Shown: positions 20,641-58,630 of the stretch, piece by piece
Numbering within the stretch: the first letter of the stretch is position 1
Layout: each line of letters begins with the position of its first letter
Assembly: GCF_963678975.1 (NCBI RefSeq)
Contig: NC_089274.1
Coordinates: forward strand, 5,878,001 to 5,942,000
DNA from: Dysidea avara
Lineage: Eukaryota; Porifera; Demospongiae; Dictyoceratida; Dysideidae
Direction of reading: 5' to 3'
DNA: 64,000 nt
Translations under genes and position numbers: made by a program
The notes under the pieces: model-generated
Databases searched by the model: none
What the model was told of the DNA's origin: nothing
Seen by the model: the letters and a program-made list of their open reading frames with translations, nothing else

Positions 20641-20700
20641 GCTAGTCTGGTGGCGCCCACCCTTTCGAGTTGTTCTAGAGGAATTTAATTTGAACATAAT
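20641..20700 (+). mobile_element. Solitary TAGTCT-type element end
   Basis: TAGTCTGGTGGCGCCCACCC matches the ends of the 16.6-kb element and the 55-bp miniature. No facing partner end preceded by the same 9 bases was found, so it is read as a stray or eroded end just upstream of the kinase-like gene. Confidence 0.4.
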
Positions 20701-21521
20701 GACGTAACGAAAAGTCTTAACGGAAGTGCCTCACCTAAACCAGTGGCAGAGATATTGAACTTTCTTCGCCTTTACACAGGCGATAGTGGATTGGTCTACT
20801 TTTATAGAATGCGTATGTCTTTCATTCTTTTGACGCAACATAACAAAAATGCATTGATTAAGCGTGGAGCGTTCTGATTGGTTCCACCAGTTTTTGATAA
20901 TCCGGTACAACCCTACTACTGAGGATGTCCAAATCTTTGCAACACGACTGAAACGCAAAGCGGAAAAACGTGATCCAGTACGTCACTTCCTACCTTTTAC
21001 CCATTCAACGGTTTAGACCCTTTAGACCGGACCAACGGTTCAAATCACTTGTTGAACTTGTAATATCTGGCTATATGACGCCTAGCTAGCTACACGCGAC
21101 TTCTCTCAGCTTTACTTAGACAATAACTGATCAAACAATAGCATACATACAATAGATATGTGACCGGATTTCATATAACAAGGCTTCCACACACTAGTCT
21201 CGCGGTGCCCGACCCTAAAAAGAGGGTCTGGTGAAACTGTGTACAAAAAGTTTGGCGCTGCCGGAATGTTGGAAGCTCCAATCAGATCGCTCCATTTCAA
21301 ATCAATCTCGTTATGTACAGACTTGCTCAACCACAAAGTTACGTAATACAGGAAACTGGTTGATCACGTGATCATAGCACATTGCTGTTGTGGTCAAACA
21401 CGTTTTCTGCGTAACAATGACGAGTGAGTGACTTTATAAAGGAGATAAACTGGTGACTGTTATGAATATGGAAAGCACCTTGATGGAAGGTACGGTAACT
21501 CACTCCTGTGTTAAACTAAAT

Positions 21522-22148
21522 TGTGACCGGATCTTGGAAAACCTACCTTTTGGGCACAAGCTAACTTTTTGGGAAAACTCAAATGAAAATTTCAACAATA
21601 TTTTTAAAATTAATTTTTTTGCACATTTGGATAAAGCAACTATTAAACCTTCTTGCTGTGAAGTTTCATACCCATAGCTTCTTTTTCCTAGGAGATATAG
21701 ATGATTATATCAGACCATGTAGTAATTTCACATGCGTGGGACAACAAGTAACTTACAAATTGGGTGATTTGTTCAGGTGCTGGAATAGCTAAAACTTAGT
21801 CTTAGACAATGATACATGCCATTTAATTGCAGAAAAATACCAAGAATACTTCATTAAACTATCAGAAATGTCTTTTAAAGTATTTTAGATGGTAAGAATG
21901 GAATTATTAGTAAACAAAAGGATTTGTCACCATTTGTCACCCTTAATCACCCACAGAACTCAATACATTACCATAAAAGTTAGTTTGTAATGTACAGGAC
22001 AGAAAATCGGCCATATCTTAGGAATGCTTAAAGATATTAAGCTGAAATTTTAACACAAGGTAGATGAGCACCTAGTACCTAATTTAAGCTATAAAACAGA
22101 AAATTGGCCCATGTGCCAAAGAGGTAGGTTTTCCAAGATCAGGTCACA
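21522..22148. mobile_element. TGTGAC-clan MITE (627 bp)
   Basis: The inverted ends TGTGACCGGATCTTGGAAAA and TGTGACCTGATCTTGGAAAA (complement) extend through CCTACCT. The matching place in the right arm of the large element (about 34678-34700) is unoccupied, which confirms a clean insertion into CTAAATTT. Confidence 0.85.
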
Positions 22149-22179
22149 ATTTACAGTGACTTGCGTATGCACACATTCA

Positions 22180-23511
22180 AAGGCGTAGGAACGATTTTCA
22201 GGGTTGGGGGGCCAAAGATAGCCATGACCAGTTAACCATAAACCCATTCAGACACACAGGGTCCCATTGATACGGCTCCTCTGTACCCAGTTCATACGTA
22301 CGTTTATATAAAGGTGTTGTGGGGTGTGTTATCACTAGCTAACAACCCTACACATATAGTGCATAGCTATCTCTTCACTCCCTACACCCGCCGCTATGCT
22401 CCTCTACACCTACTGCATGTGCTTAATGCATGTATGTATCACATGAGAAATCATGGTCACATCAAGGTCTTTTCTTTATGCGAGCTTTACGTACTTCACA
22501 CTACAAGGATTACAGCATTAATAGTTGTTATCGGCAAAGTGAAACATCGTTACCTTTAAGGAACTATAAGCTGGGATGTCTGTTCTAGCAGGTGTTCCCA
22601 AACTGAGTGTAGATCAGGTGAATACTACACTGCATTCATGGTTGGCCACTTTGATATTCCACATCCTTGTTTGTTTCTCTTCATAAATCAACTTCACCAC
22701 AAAGTCTTAATAATGTCTGGTTTAATCGTTGGTAGTCAGCAACTCCCATACACTCGTGCACTACAGTGTGACTGCCCTCTTAGACTTAGATCTGTTACCA
22801 CCCTCAATTTGAGTTCAATCTTTCCAACATCACGGACATGACACTCTTTCTACTGTTCAAACTTCTCACTGCACGGGATCCAGGAAATATTTCAACAACA
22901 GGTATCATGTGCAAGCAGAACAGAAATAAAATTACAGGTGCTTTTGTGTTTAATACAGTGCCTCGTACAGTACAATGAATGGGGTGGACCAGGGGCGGAT
23001 ACAGGGGGTCAAAGGGGCCTCTTGACCCCCCTCCAAAAATTTTTAATATACCAAGATCGAGATACTCTAATAGAGCAGTCACTCTAATAAAGCAGTCACA
23101 GTATTAGAGTAGTGTGTAGTGAGCTATTTAAGGATTTTTATGTACTTTATCAGCTATAAATGCGTGGTTGGTGAGGTGTGCAGCTATTGTCAACTGGCTG
23201 TGGCCTTTTTTTTATTATTTTTGGTCTCACCTTATCAATCCAGAGACAATGTAGTGCCTCAGTTCATTTTTGACCCCCCCTTTCTATAAGTCTGGATTCG
23301 CCTCTGCGGTGGACTGGTGATGCCACACCCCAGAGTGCTTTTGCGTGATGATTGTATGGCTTCTCGTATGGAGGTATGCATTTCTGTGTGTGTATATAAC
23401 TTTGGCTGATTGGCTACTAGTACTTGGCCCAAAAAGTGGAGGACCAAAACATGCTTTTGAAAATAGTGTGGGGGCCTGGCCCCCCCTGGCCCCCGGTTCC
23501 GATGCCCTTGG
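22180..23511. mobile_element. 1.33-kb insertion with G-rich ends
   Basis: The 9 bases ACACATTCA occur on both sides (22171-22179 and 23512-23520). The opposite arm carries the site once, uninterrupted. The ends AAGGCGTAGGAACG and, on the complement, CCAAGGGCATCGGAACC are weak inverted repeats followed by G-runs. It holds a nested CAGGGGCGGATAC-type MITE (about 22992-23308). No transposase was recognised. Confidence 0.7.
22992..23308. mobile_element. CAGGGGCGGATAC-ended MITE, nested
   Basis: Ends CAGGGGCGGATACAGGGGG and, on the complement, CAGAGGCGAATCCAGA lie between copies of GGTGGAC. It contains two CTCTAATAGAGCAGTCA-type modules near 23063-23095. Confidence 0.65.
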
Positions 23512-23530
23512 ACACATTCATAGTGATGAG

Positions 23531-23585
23531 TAGTCTGGCAACGCCCGCCCCATCGCATAGAGTAAGGGCGGGTGCCGCCAGACTA
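23531..23585. mobile_element. 55-bp miniature of the TAGTCT clan
   Basis: The element runs from TAGTCTGGCAACGCCCGCC to the inverted GGGCGGGTGCCGCCAGACTA. It is flanked by the perfect 9-bp TSD AGTGATGAG (23522-23530 and 23586-23594). It is little more than two TIRs and a 15-base loop. The same target, in reverse complement, holds the RecQ/DUF6589 element in the other arm. Confidence 0.85.
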
Positions 23586-23594
23586 AGTGATGAG

Positions 23595-24534
23595 CAAGTG
23601 AATCACTATTTTGCCTCGAGCTTGTAACTTATACTGAACATAATGTATGGCATTGCTATCAGGTGGTTACTAATGCGCCTGACAATGTCATGCATATTTA
23701 AACTGTAAGCTCACTGGTTATGTACACATGGGGCAAGGTCAAGGACCAGGTTGAGATTTGAACTATGATGAGCACGACTGAATCTCTGCTTTGTGCTGTT
23801 GCAGTTTCACCGTAAATTCTTACCGGTGAAACAACATAACCAAATGGTTAGGACAGTGGCTTATATGCCCCATGATGCTGGCCGGTTCATGCTGTTGCAG
23901 TTTCTTGCACTACTTACCATGACTATAACTGGTTATTATGGAACTTTGAGACAGTTTCTATCCGTGTTAACCTCCTGCAAGTTACTAGTCTTGTCCAAGG
24001 TGGATTTGCCCGCACATACTCAAGTGCTTAGGACACTTTCCCCAGCAGATTCAAGCCTAATAGAGCTCTATATGACATGCTTAATATAATGCTACAGAAA
24101 TGTTCATTTGATATCATTTCTCTTGTAATGCTGTGTATATACTCCCGGACACTAAACAAGACTATGGGACCGACCATAATTGACACAGTAAGATACATGA
24201 ATTATAGTTTAGCTTTTTTCATTGTACCAGTGATAGACATGATGTCATGTACTCATCCAGTATTTTCTATAACACAAACTGAGTACGTATGCAACAAAAT
24301 TTAATATTTTATCTTCAAATGTTTAGTAAAACACTTGTTCATATTCTTCCTATTGTGTTGTGCGTATTGTCCAATCTTATATCAATTGCTTTATTTTACA
24401 GATTATTAAAACAAGATGCCACAGAACTTGCCAGCTTGAGCAATCTTAGTGTAAGTGTATTTTGTTTGTGATCTTACAATAGACCATATGCAATCTTGGG
24501 GGCATGGCTTTGTAGTATTGATGCAAGAATATTA
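23595..24534 (+). repeat. Left inner arm of the large fold-back, with overlapping ORFs
   Basis: This stretch is repeated in inverted form at about 28260-29193 with near identity over the ORF-bearing part. It holds three overlapping frames (23793-24089, 24077-24304 and 24289-24471), of 98, 75 and 60 residues, each on a different frame. The second and third are hydrophobic, with likely membrane segments (LPIVLCVLSNLISIALFY). AG acceptor-like sites (TTTATTTTACAG near 24400) and a GTAAGT donor (24453) hint at exons of a membrane protein gene, but I do not recognise a family and cannot rule out noncoding sequence. Confidence 0.5.
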
Positions 24535-24775
24535 TAGAGATGGGCAATTATCCAATTATCATGATTATTTAGTTGGCAATCGTCTAATTTTCATTAACTA
24601 GTGATAATTAAAATTGGCAATTATCACATAATAATCGATCATCTTAAATATTTTTGCCATTTAGTTGAATATTTTAGGGTTTTTGTTACAGTACAGTGGT
24701 TAAATGTACAATAATTGTGATAATGGCTCATGACAATAATCGTACGACAGAAATGTCAATACCCTCCCATCCCTA
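24535..24775. mobile_element. hAT-type MITE in the left arm
   Basis: The ends TAGAGATGGG and, on the complement, TAGGGATGGG lie between 8-bp flanks GAATATTA and GAATACTA (one mismatch). The corresponding position in the right arm lacks it. Confidence 0.75.
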
Positions 24776-27700
24776 GAATACTAGTCAAACTTCTCAGATG
24801 TTCCTTTAAGGTATTTTATAGCTACACAGTACATACAGATTATTGTACACAAGTTAGTACTAATATAATTCCCTACCCCAGGAATTAATAAACCCAGACC
24901 AAAGACCTGCAGGAATCCAGAAATTTTATGTTTCCTAGTGTTTATGCATTCTATTGTATTAGATGCCTCTGCAAGTCACAGTGTCTCATCTTACATAGTC
25001 ATAGCACTTCTGCACCATGCATCACATGACGTCTATCGTCACGTCTGGACTGGCTGCTCACTGGTTACAGCTGGCTTTCTGTATGACAAGTACACTAGTA
25101 TTGCTTAACTGGAGAAATTTTGTGTAACAATTTTTCCAGGAATATTTTCAGTGAAAGGGTGACTGCTGGCAAGAGCTGCTGGTTACACAAGCAGTTTGAC
25201 AAAATTATAATAGCCTTGTGTGCTTCATGTGGTGCATGAGAAGTTAAACTTCTAGTATTTATTAATATTAATGGTGCGTATGGTACCTGGAGGTGTGAAA
25301 ATGAGCACCCATCAGAATGGCCTATGCTAAGCAGTCCAAACCCTCTTTCAGTGTAGGCATTAAATGTTAGGGATTGTGTGAGGCACCATGATATAGAATA
25401 AGTGATCTGGCCATGCAAGATGGGATGCTGTGACTTGTAGAGGTAACAGGCATGAATGTGAAGTACCGATTGAGTTCTTCATTTCCAGGTCCACTGCTTA
25501 TACCACCTCATATTATTTACACATTACATATCACAATAATAATTATTATTGTTTAATTTATTGTTAGCATTTATATTCCAGGAAGTGAGAAGTCTGTGTG
25601 ATAGATGATCAGTCCACTCGCTTCAGCACTGATAAGCCCCCTGCCTATATTATGATGAAGAGCCTTAGATGATCTGTAGATGTCCTTATACCAAGAAGCT
25701 TAAGACGGCAATCAATCTGCAGCAATTGGTGACTTAATTACGAACTAGCCAATTACGACATGAAACTGACAATTCCTTTGTAGCATATCTAAGTGTGTAA
25801 TACATAATATGTTTATGTATAATGTACTGTAATGATACAATGCAAGGAGTGAAAAGACATAATGAAGTGTCCATTTATATGTTGGTATTATTCTTCACTT
25901 GTATTGTACAGAAGTGTTTGTGGAGCCATCTAGGGACTTGCAATTGTCATTTACAACACACACTTGAATGTTGCAATAATATTTACACAGTCAGAAGTTT
26001 TGTGCTCCAAGTATGAAGCTTACACATCTGGTTGATGTACATGTACTGATAGTACATTTGATATGCTTGTCTCACCACTACTTCATTTATTGTGTTGCAA
26101 GCCTTGATTATTGCAAGTGCATCATTTTGAAAGAACCATTGCATCACGGCAGTGAGTGTTATGAAGATGATGTTGACTATAGAGCTGAAACAAACATTCT
26201 GTATACCAGTGTGTGGCAATGACCACAATACAACAAGACATCGAGATTGGGAGAATGGGCTGGAGCGCTGTAGCCTTGTGACCTGACCCTTAATCTGTCA
26301 TGTGAGATCACATGACCCTCTGAGATTGGGTCATGGTAAATGTGTACCCCAACATTTATGATAAAGCTCTGGCAGGTACATTTGGTGGTATGCCAATTTA
26401 CCCAACACCAGATGCCCTATATGATCCCTCCTAACTGATATGCTACAATGCAGCCCATATCCTACTAACCAGCTGTAGTTTGGTACTATGGACCTTTGGT
26501 GGGATAAAAAGTTTCCAGCACTGCAAACAATTAGTGATAATGCTGCTCCTTTACTGCCCTGCTATAGCATAGAATGATCTAGAACAGGTAGGCTGCTACA
26601 TATGGTACTACCCCAAACCTGTTGATACCTTCTAATGAATACCATAATGCATAGTGATCAAGCTAACCCTACCGTTTAGATATTTACTGAATAGTGCATA
26701 GTGTTCAACGTTAGTTCCCATCTATTAATGTTATTATGGCCACCTTCAAGTTAACCTTCGATTAAACTTGTAATATGCAACAGGTCTGAACAAGTGATAA
26801 AAATATACACAACTCAATCGATATGACAAACAAAACTTAGTTACAGAATAAGTTAGAATACACACTATTATAAACCAATTGCATCGTGTGTGGTGTCTTC
26901 CCATAGTCTCCAGAACACCTATATATCAAGATGACAATTGCTGAAATAAAAGACCACTAAACACATTACAGAAATTGGACAATCAAATCAGCAAATGAAG
27001 CCAAAATCTCACAAGCCAAATCAACACTATTGCAGAACTTCCCAGAAGCATTTTAGGTCACTCTGAAACCATACTAATTTTCCAGTGACATTGTAAGGCA
27101 GAAAAGCGACAATCTACATCATTCTTACAATAGCACTGAATGAACTAAGCAAATGACAATGCTCGATTGATGATTTGATATCCATATGGTACAGTATATA
27201 CATAGCTGACAATAGACTTACCTCAGCAGTATGCACATGACTCCAATGAATAAACATTTGTGTGCCACTAGCACCTATTATAAGAGGAACACTCATCACT
27301 TGTGACAACAGTTGCTGGTCTTAACTAAAAATCAACACAATAAATTATGAAAGTGAATGTCAGGAAGAGTGGAATGAAAGTTGTTGCAAAGCGATAGGAT
27401 CAACTACCATCGAGTTATCAACCATTTTATAAAGGTATGTAAAGGGTTTGTGTGTTTCCTTACTGAAAAGTTATTTTCACGACTAGTTTTGGCTTCACCA
27501 TTAATTTTAGTGTTAGGATAAAACCCTAGGTATCATTTTGATCCTTGCTACATCATGAGTAGAATGATATAAATTGCATAGCCATAGGAGGGACGAAAGC
27601 TTCGAAAGTTACAGCGCTTTGTGCAAAGCATGTGTATTTATTAAGTGTAAATCCAGTTTTCTGGATTATGCGGGTTTAAGGGTTAAGCTGTACAAACAGC

Positions 27701-28190
27701 AGTGTAGTAGCTAGCTAGGCATAACTTCTTTTAAAGCAAATCTGTAATGAAGAGTCCACAGAGATGGGCTCGCATTGCTTGTTAAAGGGGACAGCCAGAT
27801 CTTGTGCCCGGGTAATTCAGAAAGCTAGCTACACCCCGGTGTGTTTTGTAACATATCTCTACACAGTGACATAGCTAACAATGGCTATAGGCGAGGAAAA
27901 AACTTGGACTATTTGCCAAATTCACCTATGTTTTACACTGCCTAAGTTATCTACTGTACGGTAGCTTTCAGACCTTCCCCTCTAGGATTGTGATGACCAA
28001 CAGTTTAGGCCTTGCTTAAAGGGTGGTACAAATGTGAATGTATGTTGGTGGTGAGGTAGGGGTTTTAAATCAATCTCCTTACTGAGGACACTGTATTTGT
28101 TGTTATAGACTATGTGCAATCTAGAGCATAGTCTCATATATTCCTGAGAGCAAGAAATTCTATACTGGAAAAATTTTAAATGCTCATACT
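24776..28190. other. Unique core of the 16.6-kb element
   Basis: About 3.4 kb between the inverted arms. Only short unconvincing frames are present and no transposase motif was recognised. At about 27368-27695 lies one copy of a dispersed repeat whose second copy is at 52094-52655. Since this would be the internal region of a fold-back transposon, the lack of a gene supports non-autonomy. Confidence 0.5.
27368..27695 (+). repeat. Dispersed repeat, copy 1
   Basis: Highly similar to 52094-52655 once the MITE at 52227-52478 is removed from that copy. It shares GTTGCAAAGCGATAGGATCA at one end and CCAGTTTTCTGGATTATG near the other. Noncoding. Confidence 0.8.
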
Positions 28191-28259
28191 CTTGATGAAA
28201 GGAACATCCGAGAAGTTACTATAGTATTCTTTTAAGACATTCTGGTTACAGATTGCACA

Positions 28260-29193
28260 CGATCAATACTACAAGCCATGCCCCCAAGATTGCATATGGT
28301 CTATTGTAAGATCACAAACAAAATACACTTACACTAAGATTGCTCAAGCTGGCAAGTTCTGTGGCATCTTGTTTTAATAATCTGTAAAATAAAGCAATTG
28401 ATATAAGATTGGACAATACGCACAACACAATAGGAAGAATACGAACAAGTGTTTTACTAAACATTTGAAGATAAAATATTAAATTTTGTTGCATACGTAC
28501 TCAGTTTGTGTTATAGAAAATACTGGATGAGTACATGACATCATGTCTATCACTGGTACAATGAAAAAAGCTAAACTATAATTCATGTATCTTACTACGT
28601 CAATTATGGTCGGTCCCATAGTCTTGTTTAGTGTCCGGGAGTATATACACAGCATTACAAGAGAAATGATATCAAATGAACATTTCTGTAGCATTATATT
28701 AAGCATGTCATATAGAGCTCTATTAGGCTTGAATCTGCTGGGGAAAGTGTCCTAAGCACTTGAGTATGTGCGGGCAAATCCACCTTGGACAAGACTAGTA
28801 ACTTGTAGGAGGTTAACACGGATAGAAACTGTCTCAAAGTTCCATAATAACCAGTTATAGTCATGGTAAGTAGTGCAAGAAACTGCAACAGCATGAACCG
28901 GCCAGCATCATGGGGCATATAAGCCACTGTCCTAACCATTTGGTTATGTTGTTTCACCGGTAAGAATTTACGGTGAAACTGCAACAGCACAAAGCAGAGA
29001 TTCAGTCGTGCTCATCACAGTTCAAATCTCAACCTTGTCCTCGACCTTGCCCCACGTGTACATAACCAGTGAGCTTACAGTTTAAATATGCATGACATTG
29101 TCAGGCGCATTGGTAACCACCTGATAGCAATGCCATACATTATGTTCAGTATAAGTTACAAGCTCGAGACAAAAATTAATAGTGATTCACTCG
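28260..29193 (-). repeat. Right inner arm of the large fold-back
   Basis: Inverted near-copy of 23595-24520. The three overlapping frames recur on the minus strand (28694-28990, 28479-28706, 28312-28494), each with a single residue changed (C to Y, T to V, H to R). The arm ends directly at the target of the RecQ/DUF6589 element. Confidence 0.85.
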
Positions 29194-29202
29194 CTCATCA
29201 CT

Positions 29203-29313
29203 TAGTCTCGCGTGGCCAGACCGCTGTTCCGCGCAGGGGCTTATCGATTGTAGATTATAAGCGCCCGCGCCGAATAGGGTCTGGTACACTTCCAATAGGC
29301 CAGTTGTGTTCGC
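29203..29313 (+). repeat. Left 111-bp TIR of the RecQ/DUF6589 element
   Basis: Starts TAGTCTCGCGTGGCC and ends CAGTTGTGTTCGC. It is the reverse complement of 34536-34646 with no mismatch seen. Confidence 0.93.
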
Positions 29314-29389
29314 GACCCAGCAAAATGTTGGGTGTAAATTATTTCCATCCACCTATAGGCGCCGGATAGATTTTATTTAAGACTTAGAA

Positions 29390-30950
29390 ATGGAAAGGAC
29401 TGCCCATGTCTGTGGAAGTTCGTCTATTATAGATGCAGCAATTGAAGATTCCATTCAAGATCTAGGTTTAGACACCATCAAACCCAAGCAGCGCAATGCG
29501 ATACAAAGCTTCTTGTCTGGAAATGACACGTTGGTTGTTTTGCCGACTGGTTATGGGAAGTCTCTCATATATGCAGTTCTTTCGCTGATTTTTGATAAAC
29601 TGAGAGGTAAGACTAATCAGTAAGTAATTTGGTTCAGTGGTTTTATTTTACTTACAGGGTGCCAAAAGGAAAGCATTGTTTTAGTTGTAAGCCCTTTGAC
29701 AGCCCTGATGATGGATCAAAAAAGAATTTTATCTCAGAAAGGCCTATCAGTGGAGTATGTTGGAGAAAAACTCGAAAACATAGATGATGTATTGAAAGGC
29801 AAAGTACAACTTGTGTATATCAGTCCAGAAAGTTTACTGGGCAATGCAAAGATCAGGAAAATGTTGTTGACTTCTGTGTACTCCCAAAACTTAGTAGGAT
29901 TAGTTGTAGATGAGGCTCACTGTGTGAAGATATGGTAAGCCAGCTCGTAGCCGGGGTGTGGCAACTTCCGAGATATCTGATACAGTTCCACCACATGTTT
30001 TTGATTTATAATTTGCTATAGCAGTAATTACAAGGGTGAAAGGGGTGTCAGACCTCTTTAGTGTACCACCTACACTTTTAGGTAGACGTGATTAATTTTA
30101 ACTACACATTTGTTTTCCAAAATATAGGGGTGACAAGTTTCGGAGGACGTTTGCTGAGATAGGGACAATCCGGAGCTTGATTAATAAGGAAGTAAACATT
30201 CTTGCTCTCACAGCCACTGCTACACATGAAACAGTGAAGAGTATCTTTGAACGTTTGTCAATGACTAATGTTACAATGGTCGGACTTCCTCCTGAGAGGC
30301 CAAACATCAAGTACTTTGTTGTCCCTATGCCTAAAATGGCTGATCTTTGTTCAATACTAGCTCAGGAGCTTATAAGCATGAAGGCTGACATGCCTAAAAC
30401 AGTTTTGTTTTGTCAAAGTTTGCCGCAGTGTGGTGATTTCCATGTAAGAATCAAGAGGCTACTAAAACAGAACATTGCTATACCACCAACAGCTCCCAGT
30501 ATATTTCCTTTTCGAATGCTCAGTCTTTTTACATCGGCATCTAGAACAGTGATACGGGAGAAGACCCTACAAGAATTCTGTAAAGAAAAGACCAACTTAA
30601 GGTTGATCATTGCCACTACTGCTTTTGGCTTGGGGGTGGATTGTCGAGATATAACTCGAATCATCAACTGGGGTGCACCCAATTCCTTGGAAGAATTGGT
30701 TCAAGAATCTGGTAGAGCTGGACGAGATAGTAGTGAGGCAGAATCCATTTTATACTATGGGAAAGGAGCCATGAAACACATTTCAAAGCCCGTTAAGATT
30801 TATGGAGAGAATCAATCTCACTGTAGAAGAACGCTCTTGTTCAAAGATTTTCTTTTCAGTGATGTTGACAAACACGATATTGTTGCATGTAGATGTTGTG
30901 ATTTGTGTGCTCGATTGTGTGTTTGTGCTAAGTGTAAAAACAATAATTAA
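29390..30950 (+). CDS. RecQ-like superfamily 2 helicase
   Basis: Three exons join in frame (29390-29606, 29658-29934, 30128-30950) and give 438 residues. Visible motifs are the upstream KPKQRNAI with its glutamine (Q34), Walker A TGYGKS (53-58), DEAHCVKIWG (157-166, the RecQ form of motif II), LTATAT (192-197), ATTAFGLGVD (motif V) and QESGRAGRD (357-365, motif VI). A cysteine-rich tail (CRCCDLC, CVCAKC) matches a RecQ zinc-binding subdomain. No winged-helix or HRDC domain follows, so it is a core-only helicase, shorter than most cellular RecQ proteins. Expected role: ATP-dependent 3'-5' DNA unwinding in the nucleus. Its place inside TIRs suggests a part in transposition or repair of the donor site (inference). 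The first ATG lies 76 bases after the TIR. Confidence 0.9.
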
Positions 30951-30959
30951 AATACAATT

Positions 30960-33900
30960 TTAAAGATCTAAGTTTATAATTTTCTCTTTAAGCCACTCAG
31001 TCACTGCTTTCCAATCAAATGTTTGGAATAAAGGACTCCTCTTGTACGATTGGAGATTCTGTTGACTACTTTCACTGAACACATCATCTGACACCAATTG
31101 AGATACTATCATAGCCAAATCTTTTTTAAATGCAGGAAATGTGTGATAGTCCTTATTCTTACTAGCATCAGCCTCATCTTCAAAACGACCACACAGCTTA
31201 TTGATAATGCCCAGTGTACGTCCTACAGTTTGTATGCACTGGGGCTTCAAATTTGAACCCAGGTTCTCCATCATAGACTTCACACGCCCATTTAAATGTT
31301 CCATATGTAGATCGCAAGCTATATTGTGTCCAATTCTTCCAACAGTATTGATAGTTCTCCCCCACTTTAGCTCAGTAACCTGTCTAGGTGACATCACCAT
31401 AGTCTGAGATAATAATTTGAATGCTTCCAAAGCATAATTTCGGCGGCCAGTATGTTTAAATACAGGCATCAGAAACCGCCAATATCTAATAATGCGATCG
31501 CCATCACCCTCTTGTACAGCATCATGGAAGCCATGCCACAGCAAGCCTAAACTCATGACATCCAGTGCATAACTGTAGTCAGTTCCTTTGGGTGGTGTTT
31601 TTGAGTTGTTTGAGAATAAATTCATCTTGATCCAATTTCGAACTACGCATTTGGCAACATCATTGCAAGTAAAAACTCTGGATGGCTCATCTTTCATAAG
31701 CTTTGTGGCACCAGCAACAATGTACCCGTGCAACACAACCATCAAAAAATCTTCTGTTGCCTTCATGCACTTAGAAGGATCACTCTTAACGGCAGTACGG
31801 TTGATTAAGTTCCTAAGTTGATACAGCGTGCCTTTATCTTTACTTGACTTCTTGGTGTATAGTCGCTTCCACATTGCCTGTAGTATATTAGTAACACTTG
31901 TACTCAAATAATACACCTGTTACCTGTAATAGACACATTCTAGCATGCCAGTCAGCAACAGCAGGAACAAAACCCTCCAATCGATGTAAAGCTGATGTGT
32001 CATCATCCCGTAATGTAATGGCACCTCTAGCACGAGCAGCAGTTAACTGATCACCAAAAAGCAAGATCTTGATTAATCTTGAGTCATCAACTGTATAATC
32101 TTTTCCCTCTACAGACACTGTCTTGGTTGCAACATGCACTGGAACATAGTTACTCAAATCATCTAACACCTCAGTCATTTCCTTCAGCAGAGCTTCATTC
32201 TTCAGAATCACACCAAGTGGTACCTAGATGCAGATAGATATTACATATATCACAAGTATCAGAAAATTTAGATTACGTCGCCTACAGTATATTATATATC
32301 TAATACAACAAATCCATGACACATAGCTATCTACTGTACAAATTTTATAGAATCAGTTATATATGAATATACATACCACTTCAGACTTGCAAGCCATTTC
32401 CTTAGAAAATGCACTGGGGATATGCCATGTCACCAAACTTTGCTGATCCTTGAATTGCTCCATGCTTTGCACCAAAATCCTACAATAATCAATGTATTAC
32501 AAAGAGACACTAAGCAGCAGAATACACACCTTGCTACTAGGGTTTCAAATTCACTGAGTAACTTCTCCACATCATCCGAGCTAGGCAAAAAATTATCAGG
32601 ATATATGTCAATAGAAGAAGGACAATCATCTGATATTTCAGCAGTGTTGACTCTATTCTGCACAGCATATGAATGAAAATAATGCAATGACCGTGTAGTA
32701 CGGTCATGACGTTGGAACGAAGGCCGTACATTCTTATCTATGTTGTCCCCTACTATGACATATCCATTCACTGGCTGGTTGGCAGAAACAGTTAAGCTGA
32801 TCTCATCAGGGCTAACTGGTGACTGGATCAACATAGGACTTTGGTGCACTTCTGCTGCCGTGACACCGTTATCATGTCTTGGATGGCAACTCTCATTTAT
32901 AGCACTCTCAGTATTCGCATCTTGCAAATCATTCAGGTCAAAGTCATCGTCATCATCCAGATCAAATTCATCATCATCGTTGAGATCAAAGTCATCATCA
33001 GATAAAAAATCTCCAAATGAAGAGTCACTGCAGCAGCTGCTATCATCATCTTCGTCGCTGTCGTTTCCATCATTTGCCATATCCAAACAAAGTAATGGGT
33101 CACTATTGGCCCGTGGCTGGTCATCGGATACCTAAAAGTATTTTAATTTCAATGCTAATAACCATTATTTTTTATTTATTTTATTATAGTGCTAAAAGTC
33201 ACCTGGTCCTACAGCCTGTTAAAGATGTTAAGACGATAAGGTGTGTTTAAAAAGTTTGAGATTATGAACATGTCTAACCTTAATAGTCATCAATAGCTTG
33301 TTCACCCAAGATATCACATCTGCATCATGATTATCAGACAGTTTTCTAACAGTGTTAGCAGTTGCTGTCACTGATACGGTGATCATAAATGGTTGTAAGC
33401 ATCGAAAAACCTGTTACAAATAGTAGAAGAGTCATTAAACAGACAACATTAATACCTGCTTGTGTACTCCATTTGCATATAACATCATTGACACAGCCTT
33501 TTGAACTTGGCAAAGTTGCTTGCATTGCATCTTCAATACCATCGAAACTATGAAACAGATAAACTTCTCCTTAGCATTAGGCAGTAGATCATGTAGGAAC
33601 ATCCAAAGTGTAGGAACAGCCTCCTTCAATTCTAAGCCCAATAATTCCCAACTAAACTTTTCAAGTTGTTTTGGAGACTCCCTTAACATTGATTTATGTG
33701 TTGGAGAATTCAATACCTTCATCTCTTCATGAGCTTTATTGGCCATTGCTTTTATTGTGCAGTCATGTAGGTCCTCTGACTCAACAACTTTCTCTGATGT
33801 AGCATTGTACGACTTTCTGCTTAGGGATGTTACAATTGGTTTACGCTTTGGTGTAATACGGTGGTTCCTTACGCGGCCATCTCTGCCTTTAATCTTCACC

Positions 33901-34448
33901 TACAAAATAATGATTTCGATAGATTTTTAAACATGCATAGCTACTCACAGTTACTTCTGGAGTATTGGGTCCTGTGGATACTGTTGATGTGGTGTTCTAT
34001 TTGACAATTTAGTATAGGAGCATACTGGTACATAAAAATTGCTTACTATAGCTTCATTTTCATCAGCTTCTCTTTCTTGATCAGGTTCCCCTAGTTGGGC
34101 AGTCTCAGCAGATCGCTTCTCTCCTGTGTGTGGCCTGGAACAAGACAACTCTGTCTGTGGTGGTGCACTTAAATTAGAAAGAATGTCAGAGGATAGCTGG
34201 TTAACTTTCACAACAGCTTTGTTGTAGTTTATCAAGTTTCTCTGACAATGTGCACAGAAGTATGCCTTTTCTTCAGTTAGCTTCTCAAAAGAATTCACTG
34301 ACAATCCTGGCCATGTGGCAAAAATAAGTCGATTCAAAATCGCCAGCTCATTTGAACAACTGTTTGCCTTTCCATATAACAACTTGCGGTATCTTCGAGA
34401 ACCGTCAGTGTCACACTGAGGCTGTAAACACAGAGCACAAGACTCCAT
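30960..34448 (-). CDS. DUF6589-type protein, candidate transposase
   Basis: Eight minus-strand exons join in frame: 34047-34448, 33949-33996, 33456-33899, 33279-33410, 32530-33131, 32377-32479, 31924-32223 and 30960-31877, giving about 982 residues without a break. The N-terminus has paired cysteines (CALC...C and FCAHC), likely zinc-binding. Residues about 360-400 form an Asp-rich tract. The C-terminal 400 residues show features I associate with DUF6589: LFGDQLTAARARG (Asp about 635), ADWHARM (Asp about 668), GTLYQLRNLINR and DLHMEHLNG (Glu about 870). Conserved acidic residues of this kind could form a DDE/RNase H-like site; that is inference. It converges on the helicase gene with stops 9 bases apart. 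The introns are mostly 45-50 bases up to about 150. Confidence 0.85.
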
Positions 34449-34535
34449 CTACCTCGAGTCCATCACTCAAATACAGGCGCATATGATCTAAGACCAGCAC
34501 GAGTTGGTCAACGCTATATTACTGTTAAATAAAGT

Positions 34536-34646
34536 GCGAACACAACTGGCCTATTGGAAGTGTACCAGACCCTATTCGGCGCGGGCGCTTATAATCTACA
34601 ATCGATAAGCCCCTGCGCGGAACAGCGGTCTGGCCACGCGAGACTA
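34536..34646 (-). repeat. Right 111-bp TIR of the RecQ/DUF6589 element
   Basis: Inverted copy of 29203-29313, ending CACGCGAGACTA next to the CTCATCACT duplication. Confidence 0.93.
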
Positions 34647-34655
34647 CTCATCACT

Positions 34656-35042
34656 ATGAATGTGTGCATACACAAGTCACTGCAAATTTAGTTGTGAGTT
34701 ACCGTACCTTCCATCAAGGTGCTTTCCATATTCATAACAGTCACCAGTTTATCTCCTTTATCACTCACTCGTCATTGTTACGCAGAAAACGTGTTGACCA
34801 CAACAGCAATGTGCGGTGATCACGTGATTAACCAGTTTCCTGTATTACGTAACTTTGTGGTTGAGCAAGTCTGTACATAACGAGATTGATTTCAAATTGA
34901 TTATGTAATGCGTACATTTCAAAAGATTCGCGGCTTACGGTTAATTACATCCGGTGACTCTGCTGCTTAAACTCATTGAGAAAACAGCCATACAATTCTG
35001 TTGGGTTCGTTTTAATGTTGAATAAATAAAGTAGCGCTATTT
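34656..35042 (-). repeat. Right outer arm of the large fold-back
   Basis: Bases about 34670-34900 are the inverse of 21290-21521 at roughly 95% by eye, with small indels. The remaining 140 bases up to the hAT element have no left-arm match, so the left arm is probably deleted there. Confidence 0.75.
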
Positions 35043-37607
35043 TAGGCTTAGGCCTATTATGCTTTTCAAATTGCCTACTATGCTTTTGAGCAATGCTCCA
35101 AAATTTTCCCTATTATGCCCCAATTATGCTCCATTGTACCCAATTATGCTCCATAAGTCTTATTTAAACACACATGGGTAGCTAAAGGAAACAACTTTGT
35201 TCTAATGTTTGGTTTGCATAATAATTTATAATGTCAACGGTTATTATATTGAAGCATAAGTGATGTCTCTATGTAATCCTGTAGGCTGTTTTCTTGTTGG
35301 TCACTGAATGAAGCATTCAAAAGTGAGAAAACCCTTTCTGTAGCTGCAGAAGACGGTTGCAAAACAAGCACTTTGCGAGCAGCAGATGACCAATATGGCA
35401 GCGCACCAGCATTCAGTTTCCACCAGTCAAGCGGATTCAAATCTTCACTGACATCAGCAGTTTTTGCTATGTATTGTGGCATTTCACTTTTTAATGATGG
35501 TATGACATGTACAAGAAATGGAAATATTTGTAATGAATCCACCATTTTATCATCAGGTTTCATAGTATAAGCTTTATGGGGAGAAAACAAACGTGCTGCC
35601 TTGAAAGCTTGCAGTGGGATTTTCAAACTGGTACTTAGCTGTCTATTAAAGTATGCAATACCAGGCTGCATGCAGTTTTTGGCATGCTGTTTCAGTCTTT
35701 CCTTAACTGTGTGAGACCCTTTTGATACAGAGTTGATCACAGCCTCAGTGTTAGGAGCACGGGTTTCTATTCTTTTGATGGCGATTTGCAAAGCATCTAT
35801 TATTTCATAGCATGTAAAAACCAAGGGACCATCTCCTTCCAGCTTGTAAGTGGTTTTAACAAACTCCACACCATAGTCGATTACAGCTGCTAACTCAACT
35901 TGAAGCTTGTCCTTTTTGTCATCAGTGAAGAACGAGAGCAGCTTGGTTCTTGTAGCAGAAGGAAGATCTTCATTATTCTTAAGAAATGGCTCCACATCCC
36001 CAAAATGTACCATAACCTGATAGTAAACTTCCCACCGACTCCACCATCTTGTAGGACTGTAGGAAATCATTTGCTTTCCTGTTAGTTCCTTCCAAAGCAG
36101 TTTGGTTTTAGGGCTGTGTGAAAACATACTCACCCAAGCTATTCCAAACTCATGAAGTATTGGAGTATGAAAATTTTCTCCCACTCTGTCAATTGTGTGT
36201 GAAAAGCATCCTATATCAACTAGATTAGGATACAGCACCTTAACTGTTCTCATAGCAACACCGTTAGATGCTGCTCGATCTCTCATGGTTGCTAAGAGGT
36301 TATCAGTACCAATACTGTACTGTGTAGACAAAGTGTGTATAAGCTCTCGAGCAATTTCTTCTCCTTTGAGGCTCTTCGACAACAGCTGCACTTTGATAAG
36401 ACGCTGTTCAATGTTCCACTCACAAGTAACAAAACGCACTACCATAGCAAGAGCTTCACCCAATCGACTAGTGCCATCAAATATTACTGAAACATCTTGT
36501 TCAGAAATCTCACCTTGTATTCTACTTTTCTCTTGCTTCAAAACTACTGGGATCAAATCCGACATGTGGTGCCTGTCAGTAAGACGATATCCAGTTTCTT
36601 CAAGCAGTTTTCTGAAGTGCTGTAGTTTGCTCAACGGAACTGCAGCTCTGAGAAAAGATTCTACCACTTTAACACGGTGTACTTGTTGTTCCATTGGCAG
36701 TGTTTCCCCTCTAGGGTGTACTTCACTGTTATGTTGCTGTATTGCTTCAGCAATGGTTTTTTCTCTTTTATTCTTGGTGTTTAATGCATCCTTACCATTC
36801 TTATGTTTGACAGATCGAATATGATTCTTTACACTGCTCTTTTTCAGATTAACTTCCTCCCTGCAAGCATTGCAAAATAGTTTCCCACTAGATACACACA
36901 GGTGTTCGCCTTTGAATTCATCAATCCGCTGTTTTGGCTTAATGCTAGCTGCAGCTTTACGTTGGTTTGTACTCTTACAAGAACGTTTACCAGCTGGAGG
37001 ATTGTTTGTGGTAATCACTCGTTTCCTCGCCAAAGTAGATGGCTGTGGGCACTTCAGCACATCCAAGAGTGACTGGGCTCTCTTCTGTGTGGTACTTATA
37101 TCGCTTTCACTTGCGTTCTCAGTCTCTTCCCTCTGGTGTGTTTGTAGCAAAGTACAGCTGCTACTCGATGCCAATTCACCGCAAACGTCGCTACTGCTGT
37201 CATGTATCTCAACGTCACTTGATTCGCTGACATCAGAGTCAGAGGATAAATCTATTTCTCTAACTACATCCATTTAAGAGCAGTTAACAGTACTGAACTT
37301 CACAATTAGCACTCAAATTAGTACGAAAATTAGCACCGCGCTTAATTCCAGATAATTATTTTTGATGGAGCTTTAGTTACAACAGGGAAACAATGCAAGA
37401 CAACAAGCAGAGAGTCAGAGACATAGCGTTTTTGGACTTTACTAAACCCAAAGGTATGCTGTAACGTTTTCTAGTATAAACTGTTGAAAATTTTCCCTAT
37501 TATGCTCGCATTATGCTCAAAGCTGGCCCATTATGCCGGCATTATGCTCGATGCTTTGGCATGCCTATTATGCCTAAAATTATGCCGGCATAATCGGCGC
37601 ATGCCTA
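35043..37607. mobile_element. hAT element with an open transposase frame
   Basis: The left end is TAGGCTTAGGCCTATTATGC; the right end on the complement is TAGGCATGCGCCGATTATGC. Both subterminal regions are studded with TATTATGC words. The MITEs at 764-1196 and 45172-45608 share these ends. Unlike them, this copy has no matching 8-bp flanks (CGCTATTT against GTTTGGTG), so one flank was probably lost or rearranged after insertion. It is nested in the outer right arm of the 16.6-kb element. Confidence 0.85.
35234..37273 (-). CDS. hAT-family transposase
   Basis: Single uninterrupted frame of 679 residues. An acidic Ser/Asp N-terminus precedes a BED-like zinc finger at about 125-160 (CNACR...HIRSVKH). 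The catalytic region includes VIFDGTSRLGEA with a candidate first aspartate, and CFSHTIDRVG. Near the C-terminus PLDWWK...LPYWS and LQPSSAATERVFSLLN match the hAT dimerisation domain, whose glutamate in ERVFS is the third catalytic position. The length fits the hAT range. The protein should bind the element's subterminal repeats and cut and paste it with an 8-bp TSD. No stop or frameshift was seen, so activity is possible; it could also mobilise the two MITEs with matching ends. Confidence 0.9.
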   Translation of the reverse strand: MDVVREIDLSSDSDVSESSDVEIHDSSSDVCGELASSSSCTLLQTHQREETENASESDISTTQKRAQSLLDVLKCPQPSTLARKRVITTNNPPAGKRSCKSTNQRKAAASIKPKQRIDEFKGEHLCVSSGKLFCNACREEVNLKKSSVKNHIRSVKHKNGKDALNTKNKREKTIAEAIQQHNSEVHPRGETLPMEQQVHRVKVVESFLRAAVPLSKLQHFRKLLEETGYRLTDRHHMSDLIPVVLKQEKSRIQGEISEQDVSVIFDGTSRLGEALAMVVRFVTCEWNIEQRLIKVQLLSKSLKGEEIARELIHTLSTQYSIGTDNLLATMRDRAASNGVAMRTVKVLYPNLVDIGCFSHTIDRVGENFHTPILHEFGIAWVSMFSHSPKTKLLWKELTGKQMISYSPTRWWSRWEVYYQVMVHFGDVEPFLKNNEDLPSATRTKLLSFFTDDKKDKLQVELAAVIDYGVEFVKTTYKLEGDGPLVFTCYEIIDALQIAIKRIETRAPNTEAVINSVSKGSHTVKERLKQHAKNCMQPGIAYFNRQLSTSLKIPLQAFKAARLFSPHKAYTMKPDDKMVDSLQIFPFLVHVIPSLKSEMPQYIAKTADVSEDLNPLDWWKLNAGALPYWSSAARKVLVLQPSSAATERVFSLLNASFSDQQENSLQDYIETSLMLQYNNR

Positions 37608-37768
37608 GTTTGGTGATGCTGTAAGCGGATCTTGTTGAATGGATGTTGTGACGTAAACAGTGCACTTACGTAACACGTAAAACGTCATCCAATAAACATT
37701 CCAGAGCTCAAACTTTTTGTACACAGTTTCACCAGACCCTCTTTTTAGGGTCGGGCGCCGCGAGACTA

Positions 37769-45746: not shown

Positions 45747-45860
45747 TAGTCTCACATGGCCAGACCACTTTTCACCTTCACAGTGCATATCGATTGAGTT
45801 CCTACTCTGAAAAAAAGGTCTGGGGAAACTCAATGTAAAAAATAAGTGGCATCACTCAAA
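45747..45860 (+). mobile_element. Solitary TAGTCT-clan end
   Basis: TAGTCTCACATGGCCAGACC matches the RecQ/DUF6589 TIR for about 20 bases. The following GGTCTGGGGAAACTC...GTAAAAAATAAG resembles the 16.6-kb element's end. No partner end was found. Confidence 0.5.
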
Positions 45861-46599
45861 TTTGAGTGCCACCGATCAAATTGCTTCATGCCAAATAGAG
45901 GATAATATTGATGCCAACCAATATGAATAATTCTATGTGTTTGTCACTTGTTTACAATGAAATACATTGTTCCGGAGTTCTTAAATTGATTGTCCGAGAA
46001 CTAGAATATAGCCAGTGACTTCCATATGCCAACAAACCGCCGTGGTTCAGCGGCTGTACCAGAGTAGAATTTGCTTTCTGGCACAAGAGAAGTGTTAAGT
46101 TGAACAAGATGTTGAAGAACAAGATGCTGAAGAACAAGATGATAATAGGCATTAAGTTGAAGAACAAGATGCTTTACAGGCTTTTAAGTCTTTCACAGGC
46201 TCTTCACCTTCTTAGTATTCTTCACATATTTACAATCGATAATAAGTATATGTTGGTGTGAGGTCACTGATTACATTCCAGTGTGCATCTTACTGCATTG
46301 AGTTTTCCCACACCTTTAAAGTTGGCCACTAAGAGACTAGGTCTGCAAATACAGTGTACTACAAGGCACACTGAATACACTTACGAAGATAATGGCATGT
46401 GTGGAAATCTATACCACTGTTTGTATTGCGCCTTGCAGTACATGGTAGTGAAGCAACCCCAACCTGCATGGAACTGCACCCTAAACATTAAGCTACAAGA
46501 GCTGGCTTTGAAAACACTCAGAAGATGAATATTGAATGTTTGTGGGCTCAGTTGTGGGTGTTTGTGGGTTCAGCTATCATCTCCTAAATTAAGTGGCCT

Positions 46600-57480: not shown

Positions 57481-58630
57481 GATGTGTCAACCATCAAGTA
57501 GCTAGAATGGTCAATGGTTGTCTGTGTAGATCACCTCACATGCATTGATTGATAGTGATGTGTCAACCATCAAGTAGCTAGAATAGTCAGTAGTTGTCTG
57601 TGTAGACCACCTCACATGCAATGATCGACTGTGATGTGTCAACCATCAAATAGCTAGAATGGTCAATGGTTGTCTGTGTAGACCACCTCACATGCAATGA
57701 TTGATGGTGATGTGTCAACCATCAAGTAGCTAGAATAGTCAGTGTAGACCACCTCATATGCAATGATCAATGGTGATGTGTCAACTATCAAGTAGCTATA
57801 GAATAGTCAGTGGTTGTGTGTGTAGACCACCTCACATGCAATGATTGATGGTGATGTGTCAACTATCAAGTAGTTAGAATAGTCAGTGGTTGTGTGTGTA
57901 GACCACCTCACAGGCAATGATCGATGGTGATGTGTCAACTATCAAGTAACTAGAATGGTCAATGGTTTTCTGTGTAGACCACCTCACATGCAATGATCGA
58001 TGGTGATGTGTCAACTATCAAGTAGCTAGAATAGTCAGGGGTTGTGTGTGTAGACCACTTCACAGGCAATGATCGATGGTGATGTGTCAACTATCAAGTA
58101 GCTAGAATAGTCAGTGGTTGTGTGTGTAGACCACCTCACATGCAATGATCGATGGTGATGTGTCAACCATCAAGTAGCTAGAATAGTCAATAATCGTATG
58201 TTTGAAAATCATCTCACAATGTAATGTTTGATGATGAAGAGTCAACCATCAAGTAGCTAGAATAGTCAGTAGTTGTCTGTGTAGACCACCTCACATGCAA
58301 TGATCGATGGTGATGTGTCAATTAGCTATCAAGTAGCTAGAATAGTCAGTGGTTGTGTGTGTAGACCACCTCACAGGCAATGATCGATGGTGACTTGTCA
58401 ACTATCAAGTAGCTAGAATAGTCAGTGGTTATGTGTGTAGACCACCTCACATGCAATGATCGATGGTGATGTGTCAACCATCAAGCAGCTAGAATAGTCA
58501 ATGGTCGTATGGCTAAAAATCATCTCACAATGCAATGGTTGATGATTAAGAGTCAACCACCAAGTAGCTAGAATAGTCAATGGTTGTGTGTGTAGACTAC
58601 CTCAAATTCAATGATTGATGATGGCACAAC
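57481..58630 (+). repeat. Tandem array, 76-bp unit
   Basis: About fifteen units beginning GATGTGTCAACCATCAAGTA and ending with CACATGCAATGATCGATGG. Unit variants alternate (CAGTGGTTGTGTGTG, CAATGGTTGTCTGTG). Two units near 58190-58240 and 58500-58550 share a diverged middle (AAAATCATCTCACAATG), suggesting a higher-order period of about 300 bases. Noncoding. Confidence 0.92.

Follow-up and report, generated by a model that had tools for sequence, protein, structure and literature searches.

A young DNA transposon of the sponge Dysidea avara that pairs a RecQ-like helicase with a DUF6589 protein, most likely of the AcademH lineage

A 64-kb window of the Dysidea avara genome (the whole stretch of DNA analyzed here) contains, at positions 29203-34646, a 5,444-bp element with two genes, one for a RecQ-like helicase and one for a protein of the Pfam family DUF6589. 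Its terminal inverted repeats (TIRs) are 111 bp long (29203-29313 on the + strand, starting TAGTCTCGCG, and the same sequence at 34536-34646 on the - strand), are identical at 111 of 111 bases, and place TAGTCT/AGACTA at the very ends of the element. The 9-bp sequence CTCATCACT directly adjoins both ends (29194-29202 and 34647-34655) as a perfect target site duplication (TSD); two 9-mers drawn at random from the window are the same with a frequency of 2.8e-5. The RecQ-like gene (+ strand) and the DUF6589 gene (- strand) are convergent, with 9 bases between their stop codons (30948-30950 and 30960-30962). A preliminary description of this DNA had claimed mismatch-free 111-bp TIRs, a perfect 9-bp TSD and two convergent multi-exon genes, all of which is borne out, the latter by gene models of three and seven exons. 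We are fairly confident in reading the element as a DDE-type DNA transposon that is young and apparently autonomous and that most likely belongs to the Academ superfamily, in its AcademH lineage.

The RecQ-like gene encodes 438 amino acids in three exons joined by GT-AG introns: exon 1 (29390-29606) opens with the start codon at 29390, exon 2 (29658-29934) carries a DEAH box, and exon 3 (30128-30950) carries the Helicase_C region and the stop codon. The model, exon 1 included, is supported by P0020, a database protein assigned to Dysidea avara, which matches at 98% over 100% of the 438 residues. The match to the NCBIfam family recQ_fam (E value 2.8e-60) scores 204 bits, slightly below the cut-off of 219.8, and the best PDB matches are RecQ-family helicases. 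When the last exon was compared with that of the related locus L066 (272 codons), nonsynonymous divergence (dN) was 0.22 and synonymous divergence (dS) 1.91, and third positions accounted for 141 of the 246 differences; dS could be estimated for this pair, and the other RecQ comparisons gave no dS estimate. These values signal purifying selection on the RecQ gene. Viral contigs were scanned with both proteins, RecQ and DUF6589, and no relative turned up.

The DUF6589 gene encodes 991 amino acids in seven exons, also with GT-AG introns, running from 34448 down to 30960. Exon 1 (33955-34448) encodes an N-terminal CxxC zinc-finger-like part, which in the predicted fold of the homologue P0140 is ZAD-like. 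It is followed by exon 2 (33456-33882), exon 3 (33279-33410), exon 4 (32530-33131, with an acidic stretch and the motif GDNIDK), exon 5 (32377-32479), exon 6 (31924-32223, with GDQLT and DWH) and exon 7 (30960-31877, with HMEHLN and the stop codon). This model was built from open frames, GT-AG sites and homologue alignment rather than transcripts, and is least certain at the exon 1/2 junction, that is, at the 5' end of exon 2. Two open stretches of the gene match Pfam DUF6589 (E values 1.1e-23 and 2.7e-11), and the nearest homologue, a Halichondria panicea protein, shows 41% identity across the region searched.

Conserved candidates for a catalytic D/D/E triad are D480 in GDNIDK, D644 in GDQLT and E879 in HMEHLN; other acidic columns are conserved equally well. 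A first AlphaFold model was too poor for use (mean predicted local distance difference test score, pLDDT, of 40). With the later predicted fold, a second-look structure aligner put transposases first, the nearest being those of the P element, Hermes and Transib; Foldseek gave no significant transposase match among the best 50 of 75 (P element at rank 21, E value 4.3). A sequence profile run against the PDB returned just three zinc-finger chains, with E values of 1.5 or worse. Because of the conserved D/D/E candidates and the predicted fold nearest to these transposases, DUF6589 is likely the cutting enzyme, a DDE transposase, as the preliminary description had proposed. The gene differs from the P-element, Hermes (hAT) and Transib families in matching Pfam DUF6589 and not those families; to our knowledge, these have no RecQ partner and their TSD lengths are other than 9 bp. 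The element thus suggests a DDE transposase function for a Pfam family of unknown function. The name DUF6589 occurs in none of the papers of the library searched, and the accession PF20231 gave one paper, which is unrelated.

The preliminary description had called for a table of genomic copies and a search for empty sites, and both sustain its claim of a DNA transposon. The TIR has at least 44 matches in the genome, with 40 of 667 candidates scored. RecQ and DUF6589 sequence is present in eight copies: the window copy, five others with both ends (L031-L035), and two (L036 and L037) with one complete end each within the fetched stretch, the DUF6589 part of L036 being partly deleted and rearranged. 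Over long aligned stretches their identity to the window element is 99.2-99.6%, and a perfect 9-bp TSD flanks five of the six two-ended copies. Both frames are open in the window copy. Among the seven others, the RecQ frame is unbroken in six and the DUF6589 frame in one, L031, the copy whose RecQ frame is shifted; L033 holds a nested insert that itself bears TIRs. We also retrieved ten short elements whose TIRs are the same or related (L039-L047 and L050). Both ends are known for nine, which measure 116-374 bp, and seven of the nine have a perfect 9-bp TSD; L040, L041 and L047 represent one event, because one flank is common to all three. Two further loci, L048 and L049, lack a complete gene pair. 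L048 (2.5 kb, related TIRs, 2 mismatches in the TSD) gave no RecQ or DUF6589 match and no open reading frame above 102 amino acids among the 15 listed. No target motif was evident when the TSD list was inspected by eye.

The insertion target is arm A (28262-29202) of an older transposon that is itself repeated in the genome. The left flank has at least 40 matches, of which 20 were fetched. All 14 A-arm copies that are at least 92% like the window flank read through a single CTCATCACT, and a fifteenth, 86% alike, is uninterrupted too, with a different target sequence. Since the empty sites carry CTCATCACT once, the element must have inserted cleanly, with duplication of 9 bp. The host-gene reading was rejected in view of the multiple copies, the TSDs and the empty sites. 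The window element is a recent insertion, well preserved and apparently intact.

The association of the two genes reaches well beyond this family. At least 111 DUF6589 matches in the genome cluster to 95 loci, a count that includes the eight near-identical copies, and at least 134 RecQ protein matches were reduced to 86 rows, one per locus. A RecQ-like gene lies within 5 kb of 73 of the 95 DUF6589 loci (71 convergent, 2 in the same direction), where 0.16 would be expected by chance, so the two-gene pair of the preliminary description is recurrent. Nine related loci with both genes were read (L038 and L061-L068). Six have both ends (L038, L061, L062, L063, L065 and L067), all starting TAGTCT[C/G]GCG, and five of these six have a perfect 9-bp TSD; for L064, L066 and L068 the sequence fetched holds no more than one plausible end. 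The proteins of related elements that carry the gene pair are about 33-69% identical to those of the window element.

The preliminary description had named copies of the two genes outside TIRs and without a TSD among the observations that would count against its reading. On this point several observations weigh against it: 22 of the 95 DUF6589 loci and 14 of the 86 RecQ loci are unpaired, L032 has no TSD despite being a full two-ended copy, and the related element L061 has no clean one. Decay could explain both the unpaired loci and the missing TSDs.

The same data bear on whether RecQ is a mere passenger, a captured host helicase without a part in movement. Its role in movement is something that we infer, and the DUF6589 loci with no detectable RecQ neighbor would suit a passenger. 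Convergent pairing at 71 loci speaks against this, as do the retention of the pair in elements with such divergent proteins, the dN and dS values and excess of third-position differences in the last exon, and the open RecQ frame in six of the seven other copies. We therefore consider a passenger improbable. RecQ probably takes part in transposition, because it is kept beside DUF6589 across families.

RecQ-like database proteins carry host-style names such as "ATP-dependent DNA helicase Q1-like" and "WRN-like". At least the Dysidea avara RecQ relatives that adjoin DUF6589 look like transposon genes, which is a warning for annotation, where RecQ-like transposon genes may be named as host genes. 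One DUF6589 match (G000 C1:8549563-8550465) lies inside a 1,745-amino-acid open frame with no RecQ within 5 kb, and may represent either a host gene or some large fusion.

The preliminary description found no superfamily for the element. AcademH, reportedly described in Kojima 2020 and familiar to us through citing papers, offers one. In the available text of one such paper, AcademH elements have a 9- or 10-bp TSD and encode a helicase, while AcademX, of the same superfamily, has a 3- or 4-bp TSD and a nuclease in its place; the host range, animals and fungi, comes from the title of Kojima 2020 as cited there (PMC10045372). Excerpts of other sources show that a RecQ helicase had been reported for Academ by 2013 (PMC3627910), give curated bivalve Academ elements a mean length of 5,565 bp (PMC10294476), and place AcademH in several fungal phyla at low copy (PMC10799480); the portions seen of PMC12210899 and PMC8290104 merely cite the AcademH paper. 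Compared by description in these citing papers, the sponge element agrees with AcademH in its RecQ-type helicase, 9-bp TSD, TIRs and animal host, and its 5,444 bp is close to the bivalve Academ mean; we know of no feature in which the two differ. Because its helicase and 9-bp TSD match printed AcademH features, we file it as probable AcademH: ordinary in kind, a new family within a lineage whose helicase-carrying members have already been published. Its value as a study system lies in the proposal that DUF6589 is the transposase, the palindromic TIRs described below, and open frames together with matching empty sites.

A DDE superfamily separate from Academ, with a 9-bp TSD and a RecQ acquired independently, is conceivable, as at least two superfamilies, Academ and Kolobok, have acquired a RecQ (PMC9587614 and PMC3627910), and the likeness to Academ rests on description rather than on comparison with Academ sequences. 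Such an origin is nevertheless quite unlikely, given that helicase, 9-bp TSD and animal host make up the printed AcademH set (PMC10045372) and that the length agrees with Academ (PMC10294476). Kolobok itself hardly deserves consideration: according to an excerpt of PMC9587614, KolobokH elements are DNA transposons that encode RecQ, on the complementary strand in the red alga element Kolobok-1_CCri, as here, but the Kolobok TSD is the 4-bp TTAA, which the 9-bp TSDs of mixed sequence found here already contradict. Other assignments were rejected in view of TSD or domain content. AcademX is incompatible with the 9-bp TSD, and Pfam searches of nine open stretches found no nuclease at E values up to 1. 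Helitrons have neither TIR nor TSD, as stated in the available part of PMC4522978 (a paper on subtelomeric RecQ genes of a fungus), and the element has both. A 9-bp TSD and long TIRs would by themselves fit a Mutator-like element (MULE). Up to an E value of 1, Pfam searches of the open stretches gave DUF6589 matches but none to a MULE domain.

Each TIR of this probable AcademH element contains an imperfect palindrome (CCAGACC ... GGTCTGG; 29216-29284 and, with the same sequence, 34565-34633), which gives a z score of -3.4 when folded as single-stranded DNA. We folded 19 ends and tested 12 against shuffles. The z scores lay between -2.8 and -8.7 in 10, the weak values (-1.7 and -1.6) belonging to an end of the older host transposon and to an end at 45747; no such long hairpin was seen in L064 or in an end at 20643. 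The inner core, GCTTAT...ATTATAAGC, is near-invariant in 13 aligned ends of families whose proteins, where known, are about 38-69% identical to those of the window element, and in L065 the hairpin is shorter, perfect and different in sequence. Covariation, with both sides of a pair changed, was found in 1 of 22 pairs, a weak test because the palindrome arms are nearly invariant. The palindrome could be two inverted protein-binding boxes or a true hairpin, and boxes explain the data equally well. The short elements L044 and L045 have 9-bp TSDs without complete palindrome arms, which they may have lost after insertion.

In the mechanism that we propose, the DUF6589 protein, with its zinc-finger-like N-terminal part and a putative RNase-H-like D/D/E core, would bind the 111-bp TIRs, recognize the TAGTCT ends and boxes within the TIR, and pair the two ends. 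It would then cut at TAGTCT/AGACTA and join the ends to the target at a stagger of 9 bp, from which host repair would produce the TSD. The RecQ-like helicase would assist, most plausibly by opening the TIR or by unwinding strand-transfer intermediates or products. In a more specific version, which we consider doubtful, the transposase cannot do without RecQ, and RecQ acts on the TIR palindrome: the ends would extrude or melt into a hairpin, which RecQ would have to open for synapsis or strand transfer. If true, the helicase would belong to the transposition machine and contribute to setting the 9-bp stagger of this lineage, as against the 3-4 bp of nuclease-carrying AcademX.

P, hAT and Transib families move by cut-and-paste, and TIRs, a short TSD and a predicted transposase fold resembling theirs fit the same mode here. 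Replicative movement, as helicase-driven copy-out or peel-off, would account for a helicase that is an odd companion for simple cut-and-paste, for the persistence of several near-identical copies, and for the absence of any excision footprint among the 14 empty A-arm sites, which are plainly unoccupied. Weighing these, we infer cut-and-paste and hold replication to be the less likely mode, though not a negligible one. With its open frames, exact ends and matching empty sites, this two-gene element is a clean example in which the question of why some transposons carry RecQ becomes directly testable.

The older transposon that encloses the element spans 21195-37768, with ends TAGTCTCGCGG and, on both sides, the 9-bp flank TCCACACAC, which lies within CA-rich sequence. 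Without the element and one TSD it measures 11,121 bp. Its two arms, A and B, are inverted, and we recognized no autonomous gene belonging to it. Both arms contain the element's target site. At the homologous position of arm B, a 55-bp hairpin with TAGTCT/AGACTA ends (23531-23585) is flanked by CTCATCACT, and it is present in five of five fetched B-arm copies as well. The hairpin differs in sequence from the element's TIR past TAGTCT, and the element's flanks are of the A type on both sides, so there is no sign of derivation or of arm-to-arm conversion. The simplest reading is that two elements inserted independently at one 9-bp target, and the shared target could be either chance or a hot spot.

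A 2.8-kb stretch of the older transposon, without counterpart in arm B, includes outside the element a 679-codon open frame (35234-37273, - strand) with the hAT C-terminal dimerization domain Dimer_Tnp_hAT (Pfam E value 1.6e-10); a search for TIRs and an 8-bp TSD of its own found none. Elsewhere in the window, 45747-46339 has TAGTCT ends related to the TIR (on the left, 2 mismatches in 20) with flanks that do not match, and self-comparison of the window revealed a tandem array at 57481-58623 that repeats about every 76 bp.

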